Source: a virus. From it: a stretch of DNA of 21,443 nucleotides. The DNA is taken from positions 1 to 21,443 of the IMG/VR virus record IMGVR_UViG_3300009175_001420, one strand, 5' to 3'. Of the stretch, positions 3,061 through 15,035 are shown one piece after another. The position numbers and the translations under genes are program-made. The notes under the pieces were generated by a model. That model made no database searches. It had not been told where the DNA came from and saw nothing but the letters and a program-made list of their open reading frames with translations. Every line of letters begins with the position of its first letter. Position 1 is the first letter of the stretch.

Positions 3061-3375
3061 ATGACGCTGGCCACGCAGATACAACAGGATATCAGGACCT
3101 TTCTGAACGTCGATGAATTCGCGAAAACGCGCACTATCAACGGCGCGGCGGTCGCCTGCGTGTTGAGCAAAGACGAATTCCTGCCCGAAGGCGACATGCC
3201 GGCGAATATGGGCATTTACAACAACGCCTGGACGCTGGAATGTGCCACCGCCGCGCTGCCGATCCGTCCCCGGCCCGGACGGAAGATGCTGATCGATGGG
3301 ATGGAATTCCACGTGGTGGACTCCCGCGATACTGACGGTATGCTGCAAGTCAATCTCACCGAGGTCAGCGTGTAA
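3061..3375 (+). CDS. Head-tail joining (stopper/connector) protein
   Basis: A 104-residue protein in the position of the head-tail joining protein (lambda gpFII or Gifsy-2-type head-tail proteins). The N-terminal helix QIQQDIRTFLNVDEFAKTRT leads into a small beta-barrel. This includes a mid segment ALPIRPRPGRKMLIDGMEFH and a C-terminal strand pair VVDSRDTDGMLQVNLTEV. The pattern 'xDxxxFLNxDEF(A/G)xxxxxxG' followed by 'GxxxxxDGxxFxVxxxxxDGxxxxxxL' is common in this group. It would seal the portal after packaging and offer the docking site for the tail. The start is weakly marked by GAGAGAACGAT. Its stop overlaps the next ATG (TAATG), which suggests coupled translation. Confidence 0.6.
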   Translation: MTLATQIQQDIRTFLNVDEFAKTRTINGAAVACVLSKDEFLPEGDMPANMGIYNNAWTLECATAALPIRPRPGRKMLIDGMEFHVVDSRDTDGMLQVNLTEVSV

Positions 3376-4031
3376 TGGCCACGTTTGTAAATATTGAAAT
3401 TGATGATCATGCCGGCATTGAAGCGATTCTCCAGCGTTTTCGTGGCTGGGGTAGTAATTATGACATGAAATTCGCCATCAATAATGCCCTGCGACGTGCG
3501 ATTCAACATGGGCGCACGCTAGCCACGCGAAAAATTCGCGATTCTTATTTCGTCAAATATGGCGCGGTATTAAAAGCATTTAAAATATTTTATCCCACCT
3601 ATAGCGCAACATCATTGGTTGCCACCTTACTCAGCCAGGGGCAAGCAATTCCAATGATTAAATTTAGCGTAAAACCGAACAAACCGACAAAACGCAAACC
3701 AGCAAAAGGCGTGTTAGTCCAGGTGCGTAAAGATTCGCAGGCGAGTCGAATTGACGGCACGTTTATCGCACCGCTGCATGGTGCCGGGGCACGGTATGGC
3801 GTGATGAAACGCACCGGACCGTCGTCATTGCCGATTGAGGAATTATATGGCCCGGCTGTTCCGTCAATGTTTGGCAGTCCGCATGTGATCGATGACGTGG
3901 AAAAAGGCGTGCTCAAAATGTTTGAGAGCCAACTCGATACGATTACCACCGCGTTAGAAAAAGAGTGGATCGATCCTAATCGAGATCAGAAACAATTTCA
4001 ACCGGGTCATCGCCGGAGTTTTCACGAATGA
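3375..4031 (+). CDS. Prophage minor tail protein Z-like (tail completion)
   Basis: A 218-residue basic protein that fits the minor tail protein Z family (lambda gpZ-like tail completion). Features seen in order: N-terminal helix with NNALRRAIQHGRTLATRKIRD (about 34-55), the YFVKYGAVLKAFKIF segment, an inner strand AIPMIKFSVKPNKPTKRK (about 92-109), GVLVQVRKDSQ, a GTFIAPLHGAGARYGVMKR stretch, and LPIEELYGPAVPSMFG (about 153-168), which is the best family signature. A C-terminal helix ends the fold. The protein is expected to act at the head-proximal end of the tail. The base composition is clearly lower in GC than its neighbours, with many AAA, ATT and TTA codons, so it may have a separate origin. 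The end overlaps the next gene by ATGA. Confidence 0.8.
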   Translation: MATFVNIEIDDHAGIEAILQRFRGWGSNYDMKFAINNALRRAIQHGRTLATRKIRDSYFVKYGAVLKAFKIFYPTYSATSLVATLLSQGQAIPMIKFSVKPNKPTKRKPAKGVLVQVRKDSQASRIDGTFIAPLHGAGARYGVMKRTGPSSLPIEELYGPAVPSMFGSPHVIDDVEKGVLKMFESQLDTITTALEKEWIDPNRDQKQFQPGHRRSFHE

Positions 4032-6562
4032 CAAAACTACCGCTCGACAACACGAATAAACTCGCCGTGCCCAACCTGACCGCCGGGCGTGGTCCGGTGG
4101 ATCTGCTCGACACGCTCTGTGCCGACTTGCGCATTATCGCGGCGGAATTCCCGGAGCTGGAAGCGGGCATTGACCCGGAGACCAAACTGGCGTTGCCGTT
4201 GCGCGCGCCGCAGGTCATCGCACAGTTGTTCCCGCGTACCAATCTGCAGAGCGTGTTGCAGGAGACGACGCCGGTCGATGATGGGCAATTCCCGTTCATC
4301 CTCGTCTGCCTGATGCCGGTGGAATATGCCGAAGACGCGCTGACCGAAGCGCCGATCGATATGCTGATCGGTACCTTTTCGCAGGAGCCGGACGGCTGGC
4401 GCGACGGACTGCACATCGCCTACACCATCGCGAACGGCTTGCTCTCCCGCGGCTATTGCGGCGCGGCGGAGGCGGCGAAGGGTATCCCCGGCAAATATCG
4501 CTTGCAGCGCCCGTTGACGGTGAAGCCGTTAAGCTCGCTGCTGCTCGACAAGCGCACCGACCCGGCGCATTACGTGCACCTCAGCACGCGCTGGGAAGTG
4601 CCAAACATTCTGCCGCCGACCTTCGGGCTGGACGCGTTTCCGCCCGTCGCCCCGGCGCGACAACGCGAGGTGATCATCACCACGCCGCCGACGTTCACCC
4701 GCCTGTCGTCGGGCCGCACCGCCAACACCTTTGCGCCGTTTGCATTTTCGCTAGAACCCGCCGGCGTGGGCAATACGATCAATCTCGATTCCGTGCAGGT
4801 GATGCTGGACGGCGTGGATATCAGCGGCCATGTGCGACATGACGGCACGTGGTTTACCACGTTTGGGCTTTTTGCGCTCGCGCCGCTGAACACGATTGCT
4901 GACCTCACCTGGTGGGCAATGGCGAACTACTGGAATAACCTGCGCATCAGCCCGATCCCGTCGCCGACCGGCGGCGCGAGCGGGGTCGCGCTGGTCAACG
5001 ACGGCGACGCGGATACCGCGTTTACCCTCACGTCGCCCGTCGTCGCGGTGGAACCCGGCGCGGAATATGCCTTGCGCATCAGCGCGAAGCATCAGCTCGA
5101 TCTCTCGCACATCGGCGCGCAATCCTTCCCGTGGAATTCGGCGGTGATCTGGTTCGATGAAGATTTAGTGCAGTTAACCGAGCGCACGCCCTATCATCTC
5201 TCCGTCGGTGACGGCAGCTGGCACACCGATACCATTGCCCTCACCGCTCCCGCCGGCGCGTATGCCGCGCGCGTGCAGCTCGGGTTCGACGCGCCAAACA
5301 TCACCGGATCCAGTGTGGTGGAATTTGCCGATGTTGTCCTCGACGGCCCGCATCCGGTGTTGCCCGCGCAGCCGAACCTGCACCGCTACGATGTCAGCGC
5401 GGCCGACCGCTTCGGCAACACCGTCGCGCAAAGTTGCTGGCTACTGGTGAAACCCGAGCCAACCACCGGCGTGGTGAGCGTGGATGACAGCGGCAATACC
5501 CGCATCGACGATGAGCCGTTCTTCCCGCTCGGCATTTTCAACGTCTGGCAAAAAGATGACTTAAATATCGAGCAAACGATGTCCGAGCTGGCGACGGCCG
5601 GCTTCAACAGCGTCCATACCTACCACGGCAACCGCGTGCCGGCGTTCGCCGCCTTCACCGCCGCCGCGCACAATCACGGGCTGAAGTTCATGGTCGCCGG
5701 CAATGCCGGCGACAATCTCCGTGATCCCATCGATGTGCTCTACGATGTGGCGCTGGAGGCGAACACGCCCAATCTGCTGGCGTGGTACCTGGCCGATGAT
5801 ACCGCCGGGCATAACAACGCCGGCGCGTTGGCGGCGATTTCATCAGCGCTCACCGATATCGACCCGGCGCATCTCACCGCGCAAGCCGATTCCCTCCCGG
5901 AAATTCGCTTGCCCTTCGTGCAGGCGTGCGGCGCCTACCTGCCGGAAATCTATCCGTTTCAGTACACCGGCGTCTCCGACGTGCCGCGCGTGATTCACGA
6001 CATGAAAGCGGCGGTCGATTTGTCCATCCGCGCCGGCGCGCCCCGCCGTCCGGTCTGGGCATTGTTGCAGGCGTTCAGCGGTTGGGGCTGGCAGCGCTTC
6101 CCCACCTTCGCCGAGACGCGCGCCGCCGTCTATCTCGCGCTCATTCACGGCGCGAACGGGCTCTGGTTCTATACCTATACCGGCTCCGGCGACAACCTGG
6201 GCGCGAGCGATGATAGCGATTACTGGGATTATCTGTGCTTCGTCACCGGGCAAGTGGCGTTCCTGCTCCCCGCGCTCACCGCGCCCGCCCCGTCGGAATT
6301 GGCCTCGATGGAAATCGACGCCGGGCCGCTTACCGACGCGCGCGGCTATCCGTCGATCAGCCTGCGCCTGCTGCGCCACGGATCCACCTGGTATCTGTTG
6401 GCGGCGAATTCTTCCGCCGCGCCGGTCACCGCGTCCCTGTTTGCGCCAAATCTGTTCGGCCTGGTGACCCGACAATTCGAGGCGACGACCTTCACCGCCA
6501 GCGGCGTGATCACTGACACGTTTGAACCCTACGGCGTACACGTCTACGCCTGGACCGCCTAA
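4028..6562 (+). CDS. Tail terminator-like protein fused to beta-sandwich and glycosidase-like TIM-barrel domains
   Basis: An 844-residue protein starting in an ATGA overlap with the preceding gene. Residues about 20-195 (DLLDTLCADLRIIAAEFPEL, FPFILVCLMPVEY, GKYRLQRPLTVKPL, YVHLSTRWEVPN) look like a tail terminator/completion protein, and the position just before the sheath gene fits that role. Residues about 215-290 form an Ig-like beta module. Residues about 302-440 resemble a carbohydrate-binding jelly roll (GVALVNDGDADTAFTL to SSVVEFADVVLDG), followed by an Ig-like strand pair at 450-475. Residues about 490-755 look like a glycoside-hydrolase TIM barrel: FFPLGIFNVW, TAGFNSVHTYHGN, AAHNHGLKFMVAG, LLAWYLADD, PVWALLQAFSGWGW and ALIHGANGLWFYTYTG. 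A C-terminal beta domain (about 770-844) ends it. In related barrels the strand-4 motif usually reads D-E-P; here D590-D591-T replaces it, so activity is doubtful. Domain calls are by eye; the frame is uninterrupted. Confidence 0.6.
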   Translation: MTKLPLDNTNKLAVPNLTAGRGPVDLLDTLCADLRIIAAEFPELEAGIDPETKLALPLRAPQVIAQLFPRTNLQSVLQETTPVDDGQFPFILVCLMPVEYAEDALTEAPIDMLIGTFSQEPDGWRDGLHIAYTIANGLLSRGYCGAAEAAKGIPGKYRLQRPLTVKPLSSLLLDKRTDPAHYVHLSTRWEVPNILPPTFGLDAFPPVAPARQREVIITTPPTFTRLSSGRTANTFAPFAFSLEPAGVGNTINLDSVQVMLDGVDISGHVRHDGTWFTTFGLFALAPLNTIADLTWWAMANYWNNLRISPIPSPTGGASGVALVNDGDADTAFTLTSPVVAVEPGAEYALRISAKHQLDLSHIGAQSFPWNSAVIWFDEDLVQLTERTPYHLSVGDGSWHTDTIALTAPAGAYAARVQLGFDAPNITGSSVVEFADVVLDGPHPVLPAQPNLHRYDVSAADRFGNTVAQSCWLLVKPEPTTGVVSVDDSGNTRIDDEPFFPLGIFNVWQKDDLNIEQTMSELATAGFNSVHTYHGNRVPAFAAFTAAAHNHGLKFMVAGNAGDNLRDPIDVLYDVALEANTPNLLAWYLADDTAGHNNAGALAAISSALTDIDPAHLTAQADSLPEIRLPFVQACGAYLPEIYPFQYTGVSDVPRVIHDMKAAVDLSIRAGAPRRPVWALLQAFSGWGWQRFPTFAETRAAVYLALIHGANGLWFYTYTGSGDNLGASDDSDYWDYLCFVTGQVAFLLPALTAPAPSELASMEIDAGPLTDARGYPSISLRLLRHGSTWYLLAANSSAAPVTASLFAPNLFGLVTRQFEATTFTASGVITDTFEPYGVHVYAWTA

Positions 6563-6585: not shown

Positions 6586-8043
6586 ATGACCTATTTGCAC
6601 GGGGTGCAGGTAAATCAAAAAACCAGCGCCAATGTCCCGATGACGCAGACGCGCGCAAGCGTGCCGGTGGTCATCGGCTGCGCGCCGGTGTTCCAGGTGG
6701 ACGGCGGCAACGGCGGCGTGGTGAACGTGCCGGTGCTCTGCAACACGCTGAACGATTTCATTACCGCCTTCGGCTGGAGCACGGATTACGCTCATTTTTC
6801 GCTGTGCGAAGCCGCCGACGTGCTGTTCAACTTGATGAACGTCGGACCGGCGGTCTTCATCAACGCGCTCGATCCGGTCGTCTCCGGCACGCAAACGACG
6901 AACCAGGCGGAATCGCTCGTCGCCGGCACCTACACCCTGAATGTCGATAACGTGGTGCTGAATACGCTGGTGGTCAAGGATTCGGCAGGTACGACCACCT
7001 ACACCCTCACTGACGATTACACCGTCGTCTATGACGCGAACTGGCACCTCGTCATCACGCGAAACCCGACCGGGCGTATCGGCGCGACCGCCGCGCTGAA
7101 ACTCTCCTATAAATCCGTCGGCTCCGGCGTGGAGAACGCCGCGATGATCGAAGCGGGCATCGCCGCGGTGGAATCGGTCTATGCGGTCACCGGCATGATT
7201 CCCGGTCAACTGGTCGCGCCGTTCTGGAGCAAGGTGCCGGAAGTCGCGCTGGCGCTGGCCGCCGAAGCCGCGAATATCGACGGCGCGTTCACCGCGCGCG
7301 CGCTGGTGGATATCAGCACGAATCCCAGCGGCGTCGGCGCGCTGAACATCACCCAGGCGCTGGCCTGGAAAACCGCGAACGCCTACACCGATCCGAACAT
7401 GGTGGTCTGCTGGCCGCTGGCCAAGGTCGGCACGGTCAAATATCACCTCTCCACTTTCTACGCCGGCGCGCGCTGCCTGCTCAACGTCGCCAACGGCGTG
7501 CCGGATGTGCCGTTTGCCAGCGCGTCGAATCAGCGGATTCCCATCACCAGCCTCTGCACGTTCGACGGCACGGCGATTTACCAGACGATGACCGGCACCA
7601 ACACCCTGGAAGCCAACGGCATCGTCACCGCGATCAATCAGCCGCGCGGTTGGGTGCTGTGGGGCAATCGTTCCGGCGGCTATCCGGGCAGCACGGACCC
7701 CAGCCTGACCTTCAATGCCGAACAGGAGATGTTCATCTTCCTGAAAAACGCGCTGCTCACCAGCTTCTGGCAGAACGTCGATGCCCCGCTCAACCCGCGC
7801 GACGTGCACGGCTGGCTGACCACGATCAACCAGTGGCTCAATAGCCTGGTCGCGCCCGGCTATCTGGTCGGCGCCAGTTGCGACTTTCTCGCGGCGGATA
7901 ACGCGGTCAACGATCTGGCCGATGGGCGAATCGTGCTGGATATCCAAACCGGCTACACCCCACCCGCGCGGCTGATCATCCTGAACGTGACGGAAAACAC
8001 CGATTATCTGTCGGCGCTGTTCAACGGCAATAACGGCGCATAA
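6586..8043 (+). CDS. Contractile tail sheath protein
   Basis: A 485-residue sheath subunit, P2 gpFI/Mu gpL type. It polymerises around the tail tube and contracts to drive it through the host envelope. Evidence: N-terminal HGVQVNQ, then VPVVIGCAPVF and VPVLCNTLNDFITAFGW (about 47-63), the classic start of sheath proteins, followed by CEAADVLFNLMNVGPAVFIN. Residues about 105-180 (AGTYTLNVDNVVLNTLVVKD to GRIGATAALKLSYKSVGSGV) form an inserted beta domain found in many long sheaths. The conserved C-terminal half includes VPDVPFASASNQRIPI, EANGIVTAINQPRGWVLWGN and the NAEQEMFIFLKNALLTSFWQ helix, ending with ARLIILNVTENTDYL. AAAAGGAG at 6571-6578 marks the start. The 540-residue antisense frame over this gene is a shadow. 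Confidence 0.93.
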   Translation: MTYLHGVQVNQKTSANVPMTQTRASVPVVIGCAPVFQVDGGNGGVVNVPVLCNTLNDFITAFGWSTDYAHFSLCEAADVLFNLMNVGPAVFINALDPVVSGTQTTNQAESLVAGTYTLNVDNVVLNTLVVKDSAGTTTYTLTDDYTVVYDANWHLVITRNPTGRIGATAALKLSYKSVGSGVENAAMIEAGIAAVESVYAVTGMIPGQLVAPFWSKVPEVALALAAEAANIDGAFTARALVDISTNPSGVGALNITQALAWKTANAYTDPNMVVCWPLAKVGTVKYHLSTFYAGARCLLNVANGVPDVPFASASNQRIPITSLCTFDGTAIYQTMTGTNTLEANGIVTAINQPRGWVLWGNRSGGYPGSTDPSLTFNAEQEMFIFLKNALLTSFWQNVDAPLNPRDVHGWLTTINQWLNSLVAPGYLVGASCDFLAADNAVNDLADGRIVLDIQTGYTPPARLIILNVTENTDYLSALFNGNNGA

Positions 8044-8128: not shown

Positions 8129-8665
8129 ATGGCCACTTTAGGCAATGCCAACGTATTACCGATCCCGAGCCGCGTGAACAACTGCCGCGCCTATCTCAAC
8201 GGCATGTTGCTGACCGGCATGGTGGATATCCAACTGCCGAAATTGGAGGCAGTCACCGATACGCTGAAAGGCGCGGGCATCGCCGGTGAAATCGAGGTGC
8301 CGATCCTCGGTCACTATAAGGCGATGACCACCACCATCAAATTCCACCTGCCGACCACCGAGCAGCTTATCATGGCCATGCCGATCGGCAGCACGTTGAT
8401 CGTGCGCAGCGCCAATCAGAGCTACGATGCCATGACCGGCGGCCTCATCATCCAGCCGTTCATGGCGGCCATGCGCGGCACGGCGAAAATCACCGATCCC
8501 GGCAAAGTGTCGCCGGGCGAATCCGCCGACGCCAGCACGGAACTGTCCATCGTCTACTACCTGTTAACCGTCAACAATCAGACGATGGCGGAAATCGACC
8601 CGATCAATATGAAGTGCGTCATCAATGGCGTGGACTACCTCGCCGCCGTGCGCGCGGCGATCTAA
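8129..8665 (+). CDS. Major tail tube protein, P2 gpFII-like
   Basis: A 178-residue tail tube subunit that stacks in rings inside the sheath and forms the DNA channel. Family signs: VNNCRAYLNGMLLTGMVDIQLPKLE near the N-terminus, the GAGIAGEIEVPILGHYKAM segment (about 49-67), IKFHLPTTEQLIM, and a mid-to-C-terminal beta part with TGGLIIQPFMAAMRGTAK and STELSIVYYLLTVN. These match the phage major tail tube family by length and order. The ATG follows AAAGGAG with 9-nt spacing. It directly follows the sheath gene, as FI-FII do in P2, separated only by the heptad-repeat hairpin. Confidence 0.92.
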   Translation: MATLGNANVLPIPSRVNNCRAYLNGMLLTGMVDIQLPKLEAVTDTLKGAGIAGEIEVPILGHYKAMTTTIKFHLPTTEQLIMAMPIGSTLIVRSANQSYDAMTGGLIIQPFMAAMRGTAKITDPGKVSPGESADASTELSIVYYLLTVNNQTMAEIDPINMKCVINGVDYLAAVRAAI

Positions 8666-12725: not shown

Positions 12726-15035
12726 ATGTTAATTTTAACCACCGGCGAACAACTGATCGTGACGCGCAGCGGCGCCGTGGTGACCACCGCGCCGACCGTG
12801 TTCGCGCAGCTCATCGTGCGCGGCAACACCGCGCTGTCCATGGGCAATGGCCTCGGACAGCTAACCGAGGAGAGTCTCGCCATGGGCGGCGACGCTACCT
12901 CGCCCTGGCCGCGCGAGATCGCGAATCTGCTCATCTTCAACGCCGACTCGATATCGCATCAGTTCACCGTCAGCACCTCGCGCAACTCGGTCAACACCAC
13001 GCGCTATCAGGTGACCGTCGCCGCCGGCGCGGGATTCAATCTGGATCCGGTGGACGAGCTATGGTTAACGCCTGGGCAATCGCTATGGCTGCAAGCCGCC
13101 GCCTCGCCGTCGACGCCGCTAACCGTGCAGGCGTCCTATCGCGATGCGCGTCCGGCGACCGATGCCACCGCGCAATATTCCGTCGCCGCGCAACTCGCTG
13201 ACACCACGCTGACGTTGCTGATCGCTGCCCCCACCGCCGGTCTCATCCGGCGCGTTGGCGCCATCGAGCTGCACAACGGCAATGACGCCGCCGGTACGGT
13301 GACGTTGCTGCTGCAACAGGGTGACGCGACGCCGGTCCCGCTCTGGCGCGAAGCCGCGCCGGGCCACGGCACCAGTTCGTTGCTCGCACTCACGCCGGCG
13401 GATATTCACGCGCAAACGGCCATCACCTTTCCCGGCGACGCGACGAAATTCCTTAACGGAACCGGCGCGTTCACGACGCCGGGCGCCGACAGCAATACCA
13501 TTCTCTCCGGTACCGCCGTACCGACGACCGAGGGTGTTAACGGCGACTACTACCTCAAAACCGATACCAGCCGGTTCTATGGTCCGAAAACCTCCGGCGG
13601 CTGGGGTGCTGGCGTGTCGCTAATCGGTCCTGCCGGTACGAACGGCACAAATGGCAGCGATGGATCTAACGGCACCAACGGTACGGATGGCCTGACTATC
13701 CTCAATGGCACCGCCGTGCCAACCGCCGAGGGCGTCATCGGCGATTACTACTTCAAAACCGACACCAGCCGGCTCTATGGTCCGAAAACCGGGGACGGAT
13801 GGGGAAGTGGCGTCTCGCTGATCGGTCCTGCCGGCAATGATGGCACGAATGGGACAAATGGCACTGACGGATTCGGCACGCTGTCGATGTACGATGCACT
13901 GCTCGACAACCTTACTCTGTTACAGCTCCGCGCCGAGGTGCAAAACAGCCTGACCGTGCAGAACATGCGCAATGGGATCGTTGATGGGCTGATGGATGAA
14001 ACTGGCATCGACACCACTGATAGTCAGAATCTTATTTTCAGCACGGGAAAAGCATCGAATACCGGCGCAGATCAGCATATTGCGACATTATTGCATTTTG
14101 ACGATACAGTAGTCGCCAATGCAGGACCAACCGGAGTATTCACCGCAGGAGGAGGTACTCCCGTAATCGATACTGCTAACAAAGTTTTTGGCGCGGGCAG
14201 CATGCTCGGTGGATATCTCGTAGCCGACGCAGGTTTATGGGATTTCGGGCACAATTCCTTCACGTTGGAGGGATGGTTTAAGTTCGGATCTAACATAGAT
14301 ACCCAGGTAATGTTTCTATTAGACAATCGTGGCGATACCTCCGGGAACGGCATGTATTGGCTTACGTTCGGGCACGTACTGCATTTCGGCACCGGCAACA
14401 CAGGCACATTACCAGGATCGGACATTTTGACTTTTGATCTATCCACGCTCTCTCCAGCATTGGATTTAAGCGTTTTTCACCACATCGCCGTCACGCGCGA
14501 TTCCACAACTAACACCTTTTCGCTGTATTTGGATGGGACTCGCGTAGCAAATGCTACTGCTAATGTAACATTCAACTACACAGGGGTGTCTGGAACTGGC
14601 ATCGGCAATAATGGCGGTGGTGACTACCTGATAAATATTGATGAATGGGCAGTATCGTTGGGGATTTGTCGCTATTCGGGCGACGCCTATACCATCCCGA
14701 CAAAACCCTATGGCGCTCCACGCGATATGACCCTCATCACCAATCCTGCGGCGAATTGCCAGGCGTCGCCGGACACCATCCGCCTGCTCGGTTTCGCCGA
14801 ACTCGGCGGCGGCGCGCTGAATACCGACCTGACCGGTAAGGTATCCCGTGACAACGGCAGTACCTGGGTCGCCGCCACGCTGGTTGATCTGGGCGCCTAC
14901 GTCGGCACGCGGCATCTGCTGGCGTGCGAGGTGACGTTCACCGATCAACCGGCCGGTACCGCGCCGGCGGCCAAATTCGTCACCACGGACGGCTATACCA
15001 TCAATCTGTATGGTTATGGCCTCGCCTGGTCGTAA
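12726..15035 (+). CDS. Tail fibre with duplicated collagen-like units and LamG-like receptor domain
   Basis: A 769-residue fibre protein after GTAGAGGAGAGC. Residues 1-255 are beta-rich and probably anchor it to the baseplate. Residues 259-322 and 325-382 are two copies of a unit (GTAVPTTEGVNGDYYLKTDT, FYGPKTSGGWGAG, GPAG) each ending in a collagen-like G-x-y run rich in GTNG and GTDG. Residues about 385-450 form a helical linker. Residues about 453-660 resemble a LamG/concanavalin jelly roll: ATLLHFDDTV, NSFTLEGWFKFGS, HHIAVTRDSTTNTFSLYLDG and NIDEWAVSLGICRYSGD. A final beta domain (670-769) closes the protein. The LamG stretch (about 14082-14705) has lower GC and different codon use, suggesting recombinational acquisition. 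The likely role is adsorption to a surface glycan; specificity cannot be read from sequence. Confidence 0.8.
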   Translation: MLILTTGEQLIVTRSGAVVTTAPTVFAQLIVRGNTALSMGNGLGQLTEESLAMGGDATSPWPREIANLLIFNADSISHQFTVSTSRNSVNTTRYQVTVAAGAGFNLDPVDELWLTPGQSLWLQAAASPSTPLTVQASYRDARPATDATAQYSVAAQLADTTLTLLIAAPTAGLIRRVGAIELHNGNDAAGTVTLLLQQGDATPVPLWREAAPGHGTSSLLALTPADIHAQTAITFPGDATKFLNGTGAFTTPGADSNTILSGTAVPTTEGVNGDYYLKTDTSRFYGPKTSGGWGAGVSLIGPAGTNGTNGSDGSNGTNGTDGLTILNGTAVPTAEGVIGDYYFKTDTSRLYGPKTGDGWGSGVSLIGPAGNDGTNGTNGTDGFGTLSMYDALLDNLTLLQLRAEVQNSLTVQNMRNGIVDGLMDETGIDTTDSQNLIFSTGKASNTGADQHIATLLHFDDTVVANAGPTGVFTAGGGTPVIDTANKVFGAGSMLGGYLVADAGLWDFGHNSFTLEGWFKFGSNIDTQVMFLLDNRGDTSGNGMYWLTFGHVLHFGTGNTGTLPGSDILTFDLSTLSPALDLSVFHHIAVTRDSTTNTFSLYLDGTRVANATANVTFNYTGVSGTGIGNNGGGDYLINIDEWAVSLGICRYSGDAYTIPTKPYGAPRDMTLITNPAANCQASPDTIRLLGFAELGGGALNTDLTGKVSRDNGSTWVAATLVDLGAYVGTRHLLACEVTFTDQPAGTAPAAKFVTTDGYTINLYGYGLAWS

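Follow-up and report, generated by a model that had tools for sequence, protein, structure and literature searches.

A phage tail terminator gene extended by an Ig-like, jelly-roll, and glycosidase-type barrel module with kin in cellular proteins

The terminator and its slot

The stretch of DNA analyzed here (the window) comprises all 21,443 nucleotides of IMG/VR record IMGVR_UViG_3300009175_001420, a 21.4-kb linear metagenomic virus record. At positions 4028 to 6562 of the plus strand, it carries a gene of 844 codons in which a tail terminator is joined to a large C-terminal module. As had been noted in an earlier reading of the DNA made without database searches (the sequence-only reading), the 844-amino-acid (aa) frame is uninterrupted and lies between the genes for the minor tail Z protein and the tail sheath. 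Specifically, the fusion gene overlaps at its start with the 3' end of neck-1/minor tail Z (3375 to 4031), and its stop codon is located 24 nucleotides (nt) ahead of the sheath gene, which begins at 6586; this position between neck-1 and sheath is the terminator slot. An internal restart at the junction of the two parts was considered and discarded, as an in-frame GTG (V215) directly abuts the sequence GAGG with no spacing and represents an implausible start.

Residues ~22 to 198 (4091 to 4621, plus strand) of the fusion protein are a tail terminator. With residues 1 to 201 as the query, PHROG 2581 was matched over residues 25 to 194 (E value of 4.8e-9). A profile of the terminators of 74 relatives, from which the window had been left out, aligned to residues 23 to 193 with a domain E value of 4e-11 and picked the fusion gene alone among the forward-strand frames of the window. 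AlphaFold was used to model the terminator part (64 relatives), and the resulting model had a mean predicted local distance difference test (pLDDT) value of 77.9. The Foldseek and VIA-align matches of this model were nearly all terminators, T4 gp15 included, with the terminators of Mu, T5, and lambda as the top fold matches. Terminators or neck proteins of Mu, T5, lambda, chi, and E217 scored Z values of 11 to 12.5 against the model; for the Mu terminator gp37 (9khy), VIA-align gave a Z value of 12.5 and 4.7 Å over 151 residues. The terminator-like head that the sequence-only reading had placed at residues ~1 to 195 was thus recovered by sequence and by structure, and a fold unlike that of a terminator, which would have spoken against it, was not what the model displayed: residues 1 to 211 fold like the terminators of Mu, T5, and lambda. 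PHROG 2581 itself is labelled "virion structural protein" (head and packaging); the designation as terminator derives from fold and position, both for positions 4028 to 4630 of the window and for positions 7230 to 7733 of the related locus L006.

For comparison, loci were gathered by their sheath protein from viral contigs and phage records. A small terminator of 150 to 250 residues had been named as the normal occupant of the slot, and small proteins were indeed found there: in 130 distinct complete relatives, the terminator comprises 127 to 192 aa (median, 162 aa), and none exceeds the median by more than about 30 residues. The window protein resembles the tail terminators (Mu gp37, T4 gp15, P2/Mu-like; PHROG 2581) in the sequence, fold, and gene position of residues ~22 to 198 but differs from them in its length of 844 aa and its C-terminal module of 630 residues, an extension present in none of the 130 relatives.

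The phage nearest to the window among those found is L165, a contig that also appears as L244 in the viral collection and that lies within a metagenome-assembled genome of Armatimonadota. Its gene order is that of the window, and its terminator of 170 aa, which is 30% identical to that of the window, has no extension, the tail after the last strand amounting to ~14 residues; the sheath gene follows 44 nt after the terminator, with no small gene between them. Three further Armatimonadota prophage loci encode terminators of 156 to 160 aa. Because the nearest relative and the other Armatimonadota prophages have terminators of normal length, a terminator of ordinary size most likely occupied the slot ancestrally, with the extension of the window being a C-terminal addition.

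In most relatives, a gene of ~95 aa (PHROG 4089) lies between terminator and sheath (e.g., L006, 7711 to 8001; L007, 7716 to 7997; L008, 7711 to 8001). A gene of this type is absent from the window, from L244/L165, and from L036, L080, and L282. The idea that the extension had absorbed it was dropped, as a profile test of the extension gave no match. Among the relatives compared, only L012 features anything unusual between terminator and sheath, namely, a separate protein of 256 aa with the FGE-sulfatase fold (7013 to 7783; PF03781, E value of 3e-48). This fold is C-type-lectin-like, and phages often use such folds for ligand binding. No repeat of the template repeat/variable repeat (TR/VR) type, i.e., diversity-generating, of at least 40 nt was found in the available L012 DNA. 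Binding domains may be acquired at this slot between terminator and sheath.

The C-terminal module and its cellular kin

A search with the whole protein in 151 Armatimonadota and 294 Planctomycetota genomes returned full-length matches to residues 217 to 843, with identities of 40% (L140), 38% (L141), 38% (L142), and 36% (L121) and E values of 1e-117 to 1e-134; a further cellular relative, L144, aligned over residues 220 to 608 only. The cellular match starts at residues 217 to 220, at the boundary between domains that precedes the Ig-like part. The phage module and these cellular proteins share 36 to 40% identity over residues ~217 to 843 and the same domain order, but differ at the N terminus. 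The proteins of L140 and L141 have ~950 aa and hydrophobic, signal-peptide-like N termini (the N terminus of L142 is outside the available sequence), and the cellular kin carry two jelly rolls, of which the phage copy keeps the second. In the phage protein, the signal-peptide-like region and the first jelly roll are replaced by residues 1 to 216, i.e., by the terminator and a linker. The neighboring genes, read from sequence as hypA- and mrp-like (L140) and hexosaminidase-like (L141), suggest chromosomal rather than phage surroundings for the cellular copies.

The junction between terminator and module is formed by residues ~193 to 217 (4604 to 4678; this and all following parts of the gene are on the plus strand), a C-terminal linker that ends where the homology to cellular proteins begins and that would be an arm by comparison with Mu and Milano (PMC11915804, PMC10491603). 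Alignment to L140, L141, L121, L142, and L144 defines the first half of an Ig-like domain at residues ~218 to 290 (4679 to 4897). Its second half, at residues ~441 to 477 (5348 to 5458), is marked by a conserved PNLH...D.(A/F)GN...W.LL pattern. Between the two halves lies a jelly roll (CBM4/9-like; residues ~291 to 440, 4898 to 5347), which shares homology with each of the two jelly rolls in the cellular proteins. This second jelly roll is regarded as an insertion in the Ig-like domain because L143 lacks it at the insertion site and has two continuous Ig halves. The Ig-like and jelly-roll modules announced by the sequence-only reading for residues ~215 to 475 are accordingly present, one inserted in the other. 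Pfam CBM_4_9 matched the jelly roll weakly, in three of nine members with an E value of 0.016 at best, and gave no match to the window copy.

Residues ~478 to 752 (5459 to 6283) were modelled with pLDDT values of mostly 75 to 96 as a (β/α)8 barrel with the fold of clan A-type (GH-A) glycoside hydrolases (GH). It is followed by a C-terminal β domain (residues ~753 to 844, 6284 to 6559), which goes beyond the domains named in the sequence-only reading; its pLDDT values are ~90 to 95 over most of its length, and 14 of its 15 host-invariant columns are kept. The model of the barrel and C-terminal domain matched the GH164 structure 7oms with a Z value of 29.8 and 3.2 Å over 330 residues at 14% identity, and the barrel model matched GH164, GH42, GH140, and GH5 structures at Z values of 24 to 30. 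No GH family was assigned, because the VIA-align rows of the other GH families are within a few Z units of GH164. Sequence profiles of the barrel reach GH158 (E value of 1.5e-11) and β-glucuronidases. Matches of the barrel in BFVD include phage glycosidase-like proteins, with TM-scores too low to add kinship.

While the barrel and C-terminal β domain share their fold with the GH164 β-mannosidase Bs164 and with clan GH-A (GH42, GH140, GH5), the pocket differs from them at two places. The acid/base motif Asn-Glu of the clan after strand 4 was not found in the phage barrel, which has Asp590-Asp591 (5795 to 5800) aligned with the NE of GH158 and β-glucuronidase. Position 590 is D in 40 of 42 family members, and position 591 is E in 30 and D in 10 of them, with Asp being the residue of the phage's own clade. 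The nucleophile of clan GH-A is situated at the end of strand 7 (PMC7105311); in the phage barrel, no Glu occupies this position but Gln681 (6068 to 6070; strand taken from the model), as is the case for Q in 38 of the 42 members. Glu640, at the end of strand 6 (5945 to 5947), corresponds to D in 27 and to E in 7 of the 42. Since the strand-7 nucleophile position is Gln in nearly the whole family, its members may use another mechanism, the strand-6 position of Glu640 being acidic in 34 of 42, or may bind without cutting. Of the TIM-barrel glycosidase-like part proposed earlier for residues ~490 to 755, the GH-A-type barrel has therefore held up, whereas the canonical strand-7 nucleophile is absent and hydrolysis by the module is uncertain.

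Maximum-likelihood phylogeny of the barrel recovered the phage copy as sister to three Armatimonadota sequences (95/92), and this group is placed inside a clade of seven rows (100/99), with a long phage branch (1.03). No kin of the module were detected by tblastn in 50,697 phage records or in the viral contigs searched with the full protein, the barrel profile, and the module profile, and none of the related phage loci examined contains the module gene. Pfam showed no kin for the full protein or the module, and a PDB sequence search showed none for the single full protein or for the jelly roll; the window protein left a single Pfam trace, Pertactin, which was below threshold and was set aside. 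Since the phage copy nests among Armatimonadota rows, a transfer from host to phage is the better supported direction. The phage module keeps 117 of the 147 residues that do not vary within the cellular clade, among them D590, D591, E640, Q681, and aromatics. Because pocket residues are among those kept, the pocket appears to be under selection.

Beyond the close kin, the barrel defines a large uncharacterised GH-A-fold family in Armatimonadota, Planctomycetota, and Lentisphaerota/Verrucomicrobiota (L140 to L159, L090 to L112), with a conserved Gln at the place of the strand-7 nucleophile and matches in 85 of the 151 Armatimonadota genomes. One Planctomycetota copy of the module, in genome G158 (L122, 1 to 2600), is interrupted by a stop and a frame change, leaving three open pieces, and is either a pseudogene or an assembly fault. 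Distant barrel kin are encoded on Deinococcus plasmids (L003, 2770 to 4035; L004, 2980 to 4020; L005, 2770 to 4011). These uncharacterised GH-like barrels have a D-D (not D-E) motif at strand 4, as does the phage copy; the genes in L003 and L004 are located beside sugar-transferase or glycosyltransferase genes and that in L005 beside an LCP-family gene. The glycosyltransferase-gene setting fits a role in surface polysaccharides.

Possible display at the neck

We favor, with a probability of roughly 0.6, the reading that the gene encodes a tail terminator fused to a host-derived, originally secreted glycan-handling module, which would be mounted in six copies outside the neck, binding and possibly trimming glycan. 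On this view, the phage would have acquired a host glycan-handling protein, stripped of its N-terminal signal region, and attached it to the neck ring. Translated in one piece, the protein would form through residues ~22 to 198 a hexameric ring capping tube and sheath, like other terminators. The terminators of Mu and Milano are hexamers whose C-terminal arm joins the β-sheet of the top sheath subunits, and the arm of the Mu terminator moves on contraction (PMC11915804, PMC10491603). Residues ~193 to 217, which follow the last strand, are long enough for such an arm and may engage the top sheath ring. The module would leave the ring at the border of neck and sheath, resulting in six arms per virion that point outward from the neck and that may bind, and possibly trim, polysaccharide of the host envelope or of the surrounding matrix. 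Glycan binding at this place would presumably benefit the phage by aiding virion retention and approach before the baseplate engages. From the nearest phage relative and the kin of the module, we infer a probable Armatimonadota host; the display of a sugar-binding, enzyme-like domain at the neck, as put forward in the sequence-only reading, is likewise an expectation drawn from these parts.

Several points weigh against this reading. The fusion is known from a single copy in a 21-kb linear metagenomic record, with viral contigs and phage records having been searched. Both virion incorporation and compatibility of the module with assembly are presumed, and, as the arm of known myophage terminators threads into the sheath β-sheet, an addition of 70 kDa would, by analogy, have to be accommodated. 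Moreover, the Ig/jelly-roll part was modelled at pLDDT values of ~25 to 40, so that its fold rests on sequence, and the barrel has Gln681 in place of the nucleophile.

It is doubtful that the fused protein is made and the module then cut off or released, after which it would handle polysaccharide in soluble form late in infection or act as host cargo, i.e., as an auxiliary metabolic gene carried on a structural gene. The kinship of the module to secreted-type bacterial proteins, with many distant relatives in Armatimonadota and Planctomycetota, and the proline-rich part of the linker (~193 to 217) would suit such a release; however, the signal region of the cellular kin has been lost, leaving no evident export route, no protease site was identified, and a structural fusion in six copies is a poor route to a soluble enzyme. 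It also seems rather improbable that the module decorates the neck as a structural or inert element without a sugar role, doing the job of the ~95-aa PHROG 4089 gene by stiffening the junction of terminator and sheath. In line with this explanation, the window is devoid of a PHROG 4089-type gene, the strand-7 nucleophile is missing, and phage 812 has terminator decoration proteins (PMC12886913). Yet L036, L080, L244, and L282 have neither the small gene nor an extension, which indicates that no replacement is needed, and conserved pocket residues are not required of an inert filler. Finally, an artefact, with a phage terminator and a bacterial gene brought together by chimeric assembly or a sequencing error, is unlikely, with only a slight chance of being correct: although the fusion occurs as a single copy in one metagenomic contig and a second was not found, phage genes on both flanks would require two chimeric joins, the join preserves the reading frame and coincides with a domain boundary, the stop codon is located 24 nt before the sheath gene, the GC content at third codon positions is uniform over the join and the sheath gene (terminator, 0.815; Ig/jelly roll, 0.789; barrel, 0.812; sheath, 0.835), the module differs by ~60% from every cellular copy and is therefore no stray piece of a known genome, and the normal terminators of relatives never adjoin a module gene, in disagreement with two genes joined by error.

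The statement of the sequence-only reading that depolymerases are normally found at the baseplate and not at the neck is correct insofar as sugar-active or sugar-binding parts are uncommon at the neck, but such cases are known. They include the phi29 gp12 appendages and depolymerases that have been reported to be neck proteins (both PMC9863714), as well as the neck passage proteins of lactococcal phages (TP901-1), which end in carbohydrate-binding modules (PMC10747895), all of them being separate proteins. TP901-1 ORF51 resembles the proposed arms in being neck-anchored, elongated, and terminated by carbohydrate-binding modules (PMC10747895); it differs as a separate protein on a siphophage neck, whereas the window protein is fused to a myophage terminator ring and has a GH-type barrel. 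Similarly, phi29 gp12 provides the collar with a part that recognises and degrades glycan (PMC9863714), but it is a separate trimeric podovirus appendage, and no kinship to the window module was seen. The novelty lies in the module being fused directly to the terminator ring, and a search of the available library of papers found none on a glycoside hydrolase fused to a phage tail terminator.

More tentatively, and with the odds against it, a host protein could have been domesticated as six permanent arms on an essential ring, forming a lectin-like or altered-chemistry collar, with the slot perhaps acting as a general mounting site for foreign binding domains, for which the FGE-sulfatase-fold gene of L012 would supply another, independent example. 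The terminator ring is built of small, essential proteins and sits at a crowded junction. A natural C-terminal addition of 70 kDa suggests that large cargo can be carried on it in a fixed array of six copies, which is useful for considering neck assembly. The gene is also a clear example of how a secreted-type protein of cells has become a probable virion part, apparently in phages infecting Armatimonadota, a phylum whose phages are hardly known, and it points to a role, open to testing, in sensing the host surface at a distance from the baseplate.

Surrounding genes

The fusion gene lies in a standard contractile-tail cluster. It is preceded by genes for head decoration, the major head protein, minor tail, and neck-1 and is followed by those for sheath, tube, chaperone, tape measure, hub, late control D, baseplate V, J, and I, fibre, and lysin. 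The upstream minor tail protein (3061 to 3375, plus strand) matched PHROG 2551 with an E value of 7e-19, and its place in the gene order is conserved in L165. The neck-1/tail completion (minor tail Z) protein (3375 to 4031, plus strand) matched PHROG 27 (E value of 2e-25), and the sheath directly downstream of the fusion gene (6586 to 8043, plus strand) matched PHROG 23 (E value of 1e-55). The tail tube gene (8129 to 8665, plus strand) occupies the same position as the FII-type tube gene in X29; it matched PHROG 55 (E value of 4e-38), whose label "head closure", like that of PHROG 2581, looks wrong or too vague. Within the baseplate run, upstream of the baseplate J-type gene, positions 12726 to 15035 encode a fibre-like protein of 769 aa with collagen-like Gly-X-Y stretches.

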